Positions 51,201 to 54,200 of a stretch of 64,000 nucleotides of DNA are shown here, in pieces. Where the stretch lies: contig OX424570.1 of NCBI GenBank assembly GCA_949152475.1, forward strand, positions 18,720,694-18,784,693, given 5' to 3'. Under the pieces are notes generated by a model, which worked only from the letters and a program-made list of their open reading frames with translations, was not told the origin of the DNA and did not search any database. Position numbers and translations under genes: made by a program. The stretch is from Terebella lapidaria (lineage: Eukaryota; Annelida; Polychaeta; Terebellida; Terebellidae). Numbering within the stretch: position 1 is the first letter of the stretch; every line of letters begins with the position of its first letter.

Positions 51201-54200
51201 AGATTGTTGAGTAGCCTAATAGTAGAATATATATTCATGTTCAAGACTGTATTCTTATAACATTTTAACATGTTTAAAACCTTCTTTAAAAAACCAGAAA
51301 GTCCAACTTCAAGAGCCGAGTTACCAAGAAGCCCTCAACCAGCTGAGGAGTTTGCCAAGGCAACAACAGCCCACCGTCTCGTCAGACAGGAGGAGATTTC
51401 TGATACAATTCGTTCGGGAACCCCAAGCCCCACCCCTCCTACAACCCGGTTTGGAACCCCAACTATAATCCCACCCGCCAAAACTGAACCTACCCCCACC
51501 CCGCCACGAATCGAAACGCCTACCCCACCCCCGCAAGAGGCCCAAGATGAGCCCCCAGGCGTACCTCCACCCCCACCCCCCACATCAAGCCCACCCCCCA
51601 TTGAAAAACCTGAGAGAAGCTCCCCCACACCCCCAACAACATCATCCACAGAATCCTCCAGAAGCCCCACACCACCAGTCATGGAATCCAGAAGGGAATC
51701 ATCAAGACAACCCACACAAATAACACCCGATCCTGAACCCCAAACCCCGAGTGAACCCCCAGTACCAAAAACTCCCCCACCCCAGCCTGACAAAGCCAAA
51801 TCGGATGAAAGCCCGATGGTGGTCTCGCTCCGACCCCAGTCGCTGAACATAGAGAAGGGTCGGAAGGTCGAGCTGAGGGGCGTGTTTGTGGGAAGTGCTC
51901 CAATGTCGGTCAAATGGTTCCTGGACGAGAGCCGAACTCGCACAGAGATTCATACTGGTTGGTGAATGGAACATTAAATTTTCACACTTCTTTCGACACG
52001 AATATATTCATTTTATCTTTCATGCTAATCAGAACAAGTACATTTTAATGTAGTGTTTATATTCATATCTTTTTTCTATCAGTTACAAATTCTCCTGTAT
52101 TTGTAATATCGAAAATCTGACTAAATCATTCAAACTGTCCGAATTTCAGCACTATCGTCTTTCCTTTATTCATTGATACTTAGATAAAGATAAAATTCAG
52201 TTTTTCCCCTCAAAACTTCTGAATCGAAATGTCCTCCATTTGCTTTGTTAGTTTCAAATCCGTCATGATTGTAAGTGCATAGGATGAGTCCAGATATTCT
52301 TGTTCTACTCTAATCTCATTCCTGGTATCAGGCTGTGTACTCATACTATCCTTCAGATGACCGAGTACTCATCGAGACGTCGGAGACCACGTCGTCCCTG
52401 ACGATCAAGGAGGCTCAGGAGAGAGACACGGGGATCTACACGCTCGAGGTCTCCAACAGTCTTGGACAGTACCAACTCAGCTCCTCCGTGACGGTGGAAG
52501 GTATGAGTCAGATGTTCCTCATGGTTGGGCTTGTTCTCAAGTTCATGTATTGCTCTCTCTGTGAAGTTTGTATTGGTCTCAATTTCAGTCATGTACATGT
52601 ACTTTGACTTGAAAAATCAAATTGGTTAGTATGACATATATTATCAAAATAATCAACTCCCTAAACAGTAAACTGAAAAGAACTTTGGTGAGAGATCTAC
52701 ATGTGCATGTATACCCATTTGACTCAAACCAAACTGCAATTCAGTGAACATGGTTAATAGTTTGTACCATGCAAGAATGCAATCCACAAAAAACATGAAT
52801 TAGGTTATATCTATTTGTAATGTACATGTATGCGATAAAGTTTCTCTGCCCTCCAGACAAGCCGGACCCACCTGTCGCCCAGCCTTTCATCAGCAACATC
52901 CGGAACCACTCACTAGACCTGTCGTGGTACGGGTCTGGGTACGATGGCGGTACACCGATACTGCACTACCGGGTGGAGATGAGACAGGAGGCCGAGGACA
53001 CGTGGCTGACACTGACTGACACCTGTCAGGTGAGTGACATGTGGTTGACACTGACTGACACCTGTCGGGTGAGTGACATGTGGTTGACACTGACTGACAC
53101 CTGTCGGGTGAGTGACATGTGGTTGACACTGACTGACACCTGTCAGATGAGTGACATCATCACGGTGGCTGACACTGACACCTATCAGGTGACATGTGAC
53201 TGACTGACACCTGTCAGGTGAGTGACATGCAGTCGACACTGAATGACACCTGTCAGATGAGTGACATCACGCTGGCTTACACTGATTGACAATATCAGGT
53301 GACATGTGGCTGACACCTGTCAGGTGATTAACATGTGGCTGACACCTGTCAGGCGGGTGACATGTGGCTGACACCTGTCAGGTGAGTGATGTGTTGCTGA
53401 CACCTGTCAGGTGAGTGACATGTGACAGACACCTGTCAGGTGAGTGACATGTTGCTGACAGGTGTCAGGTGAGTGACATGTTGCTGACACCTGTCAGGTG
53501 AGTGACATGTGGCTGACACCTGTCAGGTGAGTGACATGTTGCTGACACCTGTCAGGTGAGTGACATGTTGCTGACAGGTGAATGACAAAAGTCATAACAC
53601 ACGTCATGATGTTATATACAGTACATCAGATTTGAATGTCAGTGAATGTGTTCAATAGCATAATGATGTTCACACTTTAAAACTACATGTAATGTCATTG
53701 CATGTGTGTAACATGTGTAGATCTCTATCTGGATAAATATCAACAGTCGAACAATGTAGATCTATCATTGTATTTTACTGAAAAACATTTTTCAAATTTA
53801 TTCACTCGTAATATTTTGCCCCCACAGCACACAGCTTTCAACATTCAAAATCTGGAACCCAACAAAGGCTACGAGTTTCGCGTTTCGGCAGGCAATCGCC
53901 ATGGTTTCGGAGCTCCGAGCAAGCTATCTGATTTGGTGTACACCATGGAACACCCTGTAACTGAGACACCAGAAGGTAGGGGGTGTTGCAAAAATAAAAG
54001 TAGTATTGGGTACTAGTGTATGTGGGTTGAGAGTGTTTAACCGGTTTAGTTTATTTGTGTACATGTATATGTATTCAGGATTGAACAAAATGTCCTGGAG
54101 AATTAGTTAGTATAAATTTGGTACCAACTGACAACTCAGTTTGCATGGTATATACTTGAAAGCATGTTAATCCTAACATAACTTTGTTGTTGGCTTCTCA

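Follow-up and report, generated by a model that had tools for sequence, protein, structure and literature searches.

A minisatellite enclosing an exon end and its splice donor in an MLCK-type gene of the annelid Terebella lapidaria, and similar arrays elsewhere in the genome

The window analysed here, a 64,000-nucleotide stretch of the Terebella lapidaria genome, carries on its forward strand an MLCK-type gene (46388..61438, window coordinates), for which we built by hand a 16-exon model encoding 1835 aa in one open frame, with GT-AG introns and consistent phases. Ig domains, an FN3 domain, a protein kinase and a C-terminal Ig domain follow one another in the predicted protein, and this is the order of Ig, FN3, CaMK-type kinase and C-terminal Ig by which a smooth-muscle-type MLCK is recognised. 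Pfam returned I-set Ig domains, one fn3 and one Pkinase; the best PDB relatives of the kinase were MYLK4, twitchin, DAPK and titin kinase; and many of the best 120 of 2418 proteins found with query residues 1082-1543 are named smooth-muscle myosin light chain kinase. Together, these domains, kinase relatives and named homologues bear out the MLCK identity given in the original prediction. Residues 1060-1300 alone, used as a protein query, gave 3 distant matches among 921 candidates. C-terminal of the kinase lies a basic 27-residue segment that may resemble the CaM site of MLCK, and the motifs DFRSVL and DFRGVL (window about 48655-48672 and 50179-50196) may correspond to the DFRxxL actin-binding motifs of vertebrate MLCK.

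The FN3 domain is split between exon 7 (52857..53029, forward strand), which encodes its first part, is homologous to animal MLCK FN3 and ends in phase 0, and exon 8 (53828..53975, forward strand), which encodes the remainder (HTAFNIQNL...), the junction 53029/53828 being phase 0. A minisatellite extending from 52997 to about 53580 in intron 7 encloses the exon 7 donor at 53030. The exon end and donor had been predicted to lie inside the array, as they do, while its start, previously set at 53010, is at 52997. Its putative founding unit (52997..53035) consists of the last 33 exonic bases followed by GTGAGT, and copies of it at 53036, 53075 and 53114 each differ from this exonic unit at 3 of 39 positions. 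Counted from the donor onwards, three 39-bp units occupy 53030..53146, two of them (53030-53068 and 53069-53107) identical over all 39 bases. They are followed by a diverged section (53147..53298), in which units of 42, 29 and 39 bp make up a 110-bp period with broken donors (CAG/ATGAGT) as well as the donors at 53189 and 53218, and by a 29-bp section (53299..53580; TRF 53299-53576, 9.6 copies) whose unit equals the 39-bp unit minus about 10 bases and which holds seven perfect CAG/GTGAGT donors. TRF scores were 312 for the 39-bp and 451 for the 29-bp period, compared with a best score of 69 in 10 Markov-1 shuffles of the window.

The canonical donor CAG/GTGAGT at 53030..53035 (U1 duplex -11.7 kcal/mol) gives an FN3 spacing like that of relatives. 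The second and third donors, both CGG/GTGAGT at -11.0 kcal/mol (53069..53074 and 53108..53113, forward strand), follow at +39 and +78 nt, confirming the exact 39-bp spacing originally proposed; also as proposed, reading through once or twice meets no stop, so that their use would keep the frame and add 13 or 26 residues. Beyond exon 7 the frame runs on for 171 nt before an in-frame TGA (53201..53203); ahead of this stop the only donors in frame are 53069, 53108 and a weak CAG/GTGACA at 53189 (+53 residues). The stop precedes every donor from 53218 on. That donor, a perfect one absent from the original prediction, is frame-shifted, and seven CAG/GTGAGT donors follow it at 53382, 53411, 53440, 53469, 53498, 53527 and 53556. 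The exact 29-bp period ascribed to these seven stands, but all of them, like 53218, lie behind the TGA, and to this extent the original interpretation is without support. Altogether, 11 GTGAGT donors follow CAG or CGG, 53030 included; nine of these are identical CAG/GTGAGT sites, and eight donors downstream thus equal 53030 in U1 complementarity. With a repeat unit that contains the 3' end of an exon and its donor (33 exonic and 6 intronic bases) and several tandem copies in which the donor is intact, the array has the anatomy of a boundary minisatellite of the CBS VNTR and IFI6 kind.

The exonic copy encodes W-L-T-L-T-D-T-C-Q, which matches the FN3 domain preceding the kinase in other animals: the counterparts are WKTLTSKCE / WKTLTSKCEHTTYNVKNL in P0034 (named Owenia fusiformis), WKELTSTCH / WKELTSTCHSTSYNVQGL in lamprey P0047 (Petromyzon marinus), and WTDLTTCR in birds. 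The homologue set comprised 123 database proteins, including many birds, which are not independent, and some titin-like paralogues; 102 had an FN3 match beside the kinase, and 101 of them span the site. The spacing from the tryptophan to a downstream tyrosine (W-to-Y) is 23 residues in 81 of the 101 aligned homologues, 24 in 19 and 28 in one. The window protein has 24 with donor 53030 and would have 37 or 50 with an insert, so that, judged by these alignments, an insert of 13 or 26 residues falls outside the observed range of FN3 spacing.

No copy of the array unit was found outside this locus in the 761.6-Mb assembly: when a 26-base word across the donor was searched with 2 mismatches allowed, all 13 matches fell within this array, and this one assembly contained a single locus, with no second allele of the array. 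Since the exonic residues are common to distant animals and the unit occurs only here, the array appears to have been born here from the exon, which is most simply its ancestor. The same two observations led us to reject the converse, an exon overwritten by an intronic array. The original claim that the array carries copies of a genuine 5' splice site from the FN3 exon of an MLCK gene is upheld. Among the matches of the array DNA on contig C8, L002 (which L003 overlaps) proved by eye to hold a CAGTCAGTGTC-type minisatellite beside the exons of another gene, and was for this reason rejected as a paralogous array.

Donor-bearing arrays were then sought elsewhere in the genome by two word searches. 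Three CAGGTGAGT words spaced 19-49 bases apart, searched across the whole assembly, gave at least 36 matches in 5 loci, the MLCK array included, and the reversed word gave 0. All five arrays begin where an open frame ends, at its 3' end, and lie in sense orientation; at the four new loci, which were read by eye, the unit contains the exon end and its donor. The looser query of three AGGTRAGT words gave 454 matches against 253 for its reversed control; loci were counted in C1, C2 and the first 1.74 Mb of C3, where the matches listed include 8 array loci, four of them starting at the end of an open frame. Across both searches, 9 of 13 arrays lie at exon ends, five with homology support (MLCK counted) and four on the strength of an open frame and splice sites without homology. 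One of the 13, L083, does not lie at an exon end, no open frame of at least 25 codons reaching its first donors; the remaining three (L082, L088, and L089 with L090) extend beyond the stretch read, with their upstream edge outside it.

Among the arrays with homology support, L078 (3657-5089, G000:C3:37890656-37892088) comprises 31 copies of a 46-bp unit in a glycosyltransferase-21 family gene (E 2e-16), which we take to be ceramide glucosyltransferase; a stop lies immediately past its first donor, and 26 donors within 1.3 kb downstream equal or beat that donor. L079 (3820-4252, C3:40.52 Mb, reverse strand) comprises 14 copies of a 31-bp unit in a gene with a laminin N-terminal domain (E 2e-19). 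L084 and L085 lie at exon ends of a MOV10-like gene (MOV-10 beta-barrel, E 5e-11) and a MORC-like gene (MORC2, E 2.7e-4), respectively. The others adjoin open frames that lack a family match, at the CAGGTGAGT locus L080 and at L081 (3896-4118, C16:3.06 Mb, reverse strand, 24-bp unit), or lack homology support, at L086 (685-850, C2:26910984 onward, 30-bp unit) and L087, where the exon end is only weakly like the unit.

Several other repeats were noted in passing. On the reverse strand of L080 (5134-6420), a second minisatellite, of a 42-bp family (GTAATCACCTG..CAGTCAG), is found about 660 bp past the donor-bearing array. Matches of a donor-word-rich 42-bp satellite (AGGTGAGTGAGAGAGTCAGTGACAGACACTTGGTCTGTGTGG) are spread across about 20 kb at C2:53050743-53070600, L088 being array over its whole length. 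A 2-copy 454-bp tandem repeat occurs both at window 42173-43103 and at L079 6388-7319, with a closely matching consensus over the first 120 bases, and is probably a dispersed genome repeat. By its COX1 match, G000:C438 (15973 bases) is a mitochondrial contig, and C417 carries another, partial COX1 match. For a 219-residue piece of COX1, identities among the best 120 of 7995 scored proteins reached 84-85% (one at 84% is named Octopus vulgaris), so that the proteins scored included no close relative.

As a control, a shuffled word with unchanged composition matched 257 times, and its own reversed control 2538 times; in the listed stretch, the shuffled word marked 7 array places (4 families) and the donor word 8 loci. 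Judged by the shuffled-word and reversed controls, donor words are thus not clearly commoner in arrays overall, and it is their location that makes the donor-bearing arrays notable, without any overall enrichment. Preferential birth at exon ends is suggested by this location, with the proviso that querying donor words itself favours finding donors.

Duplications of an exon end in human genes place these arrays in a known class. The title of a 2001 paper by Lievers et al. reportedly links the CBS VNTR to reduced enzyme activity, and by the title of a 1995 paper by Turri, Cuin and Porter, the human IFI6 (6-16) minisatellite is said to give multiple splice donor sites. The CBS repeat, a 31-bp VNTR at exon 13/intron 13, is described in an excerpt of PMC2630376 as c.1444_1467+7(16_21), with 24 exonic and 7 intronic bases in 16-21 copies, and is also entered in a table excerpted from PMC1395315. 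As in the MLCK array, its unit spans an exon end and donor (24+7 bases there, 33+6 here) and stands in many tandem copies. It differs in that 31 bp is not a multiple of 3 and in that CBS alleles vary between 16 and 21 copies, whereas the MLCK array was read in one assembly; the period of L079, 31 bp, is the same as that of CBS. In IFI6, an unrelated gene, minisatellite repeats likewise carry donors, and three mRNA species arise through two downstream repeat units acting as donors (excerpt of PMC4526556), so that donor use is published there, whereas the donors of the MLCK array are predicted. De Grassi and Ciccarelli 2009 describe, in the excerpted part of PMC2812944, boundary minisatellite variation that alters splicing in human segmental duplications; their repeats concern recent human paralogues and novel introns, in contrast to a single locus in an invertebrate gene. 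The earthworm metallothionein intron repeats in an excerpt of PMC12783039 are not donor arrays, and in the literature searched by title and start of abstract we found no published survey of donor-founded arrays in an invertebrate. The kind is thus already known from CBS and IFI6, and what is of interest here is that the 39-bp period keeps the frame and that such arrays recur within one genome.

Comparison of the nine exon-end arrays bears on whether the frame has been selected. Three have a series of strong in-frame donors before the stop: MLCK (+39, +78), L081 (+48 to +192) and L086 (+60 to +150, the end of the stretch read). This is the chance expectation of one in three, small as the numbers are, and therefore gives no support to selection on frame. 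In-frame donors reach at least +50 residues before the stop in L086 and at least +64 in L081, making both candidates for variable protein repeats generated by donor choice. The other six arrays have no further strong in-frame donor before the stop, and their genes would scarcely function without dominance of the first donor. Systematically weaker downstream donors can be rejected as the reason for such dominance, because all nine arrays have donors within the next 1.3 kb (or the stretch read) that are as U1-complementary as the first or more so. If these genes make protein, the exon-proximal donor must therefore win by position, and it is mainly by analogy with these comparable arrays that we infer 53030 to win in MLCK.

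RNA folding offers another view of the array. The 621-nt array RNA is predicted to fold at -292.3 kcal/mol, compared with -236.0 +/- 6.7 in 20 shuffles (z -8.4, reached by 0 of 20), and contains 19 inverted pairs; its unit core CTGACACCTGTCAG is almost palindromic. Mean unpaired probability is low, at 0.20-0.25 for the five donors from 53030 to 53218 and 0.02-0.15 for the seven 29-bp donors. Such a self-complementary array might hide its donors and so slow splicing or leave intron 7 retained, in the manner of a decoy or brake; these values favour that reading, which we nevertheless consider distinctly improbable. The values come from naked-RNA prediction, the 161 nt around the first three donors fold ordinarily (z -1.5, 11 of 200 shuffles as good), and a palindromic unit would pair with itself even without selection. 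Moreover, 53030 is itself occluded, the predicted naked-RNA probability that its 9-mer is unpaired being no higher than 0.0007 in any of three local settings; all 12 scored array donors are at or below 0.0051 locally, and some of the 14 other donors of the same gene are as low (0.0001-0.057). With 53030 folded too, folding is without support as the reason for its winning, and since eight downstream donors equal it in U1 complementarity, the local sequence offers no feature that distinguishes it. On this modelling the array may act as a brake, which would leave the choice of 53030 unexplained.

The array could instead be a functional, length-variable ladder of donors, producing MLCK isoforms in which the FN3 domain gains 0, 13 or 26 residues, with variation between individuals. 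Strong second and third donors, in frame and ahead of any stop, would allow this; the two identical adjacent 39-bp units are what one would expect of recent, possibly still polymorphic copies; and in human IFI6 two downstream repeat units are reported to act as donors (PMC4526556, excerpt). We nevertheless think it unlikely, given that in-frame series occur in comparable arrays about as often as by chance, that 100 of the 101 aligned FN3 homologues (database proteins, many of them from birds) keep 23-24 residues at this site, and that use of any of the other eight perfect donors would cut the protein short. Another precedent is the UBC polyubiquitin gene, with its tandem array of dual-specific splice sites, and introns spliced at such sites are enriched in tandem-repeat genes (both from an excerpt of PMC10809524). 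Were each ...TGTCAG/GTGAGT both acceptor and donor, units could be removed or included singly, and every unit with an intact CAG/GTGAGT does bear the AGGT motif, in tandem as in UBC. The UBC sites, however, delimit in-frame coding monomers, whereas the MLCK frame closes inside the array, at 53201; together with a 29-bp period that is not a multiple of 3, this means that the units are not clean coding monomers, and by eye no clear pyrimidine tract precedes the unit AG, which makes dual specificity very improbable here. Long tandem arrays can be miscounted in assemblies, but an assembly or chance artefact is barely credible at a single locus whose copies carry distinct substitutions and whose TRF scores so exceed those of the shuffles.

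A tolerated tandem duplication of the exon end, with the first donor dominant, is to our minds the best explanation overall, and a probable one. A 39-bp segment (33 exon 7 bases and six intron bases) would have been tandemly duplicated into the intron. The anatomy can be read directly from the array, and the direction, from exon to intron, is indicated by the conservation of the exon. The 29-bp unit is probably a shortened 39-bp unit that expanded further. Such a duplication would have been tolerated because the original donor stays in place: provided that the spliceosome keeps to the exon-proximal donor 53030, the protein would be unchanged. Since 53069 and 53108 keep the frame and are only slightly weaker, the FN3 fold may be lengthened by 13 or 26 residues in a minority of transcripts. 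Use of the later donors would yield truncated proteins that lack the kinase; these donors are thus presumably used little or their products removed. The in-frame 39-bp spacing itself is probably luck.

As a more tentative generalisation, which we hold with less than even confidence, minisatellites in this genome may repeatedly arise at exon 3' ends and their donors, since a duplication that adds a donor copy downstream does not remove the first one; ladders of near-identical donors would then occur in many genes, and by chance about one in three would be in frame. Within MLCK, a run of 11 donors in nearly the same local context makes the rule for exon-proximal choice testable in the RNA of one animal. 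If the generalisation is true, changes in copy number could set new protein lengths, the arrays would form a natural series on the choice among identical donors, and an intronic minisatellite would have a simple path to in-frame protein repeats.
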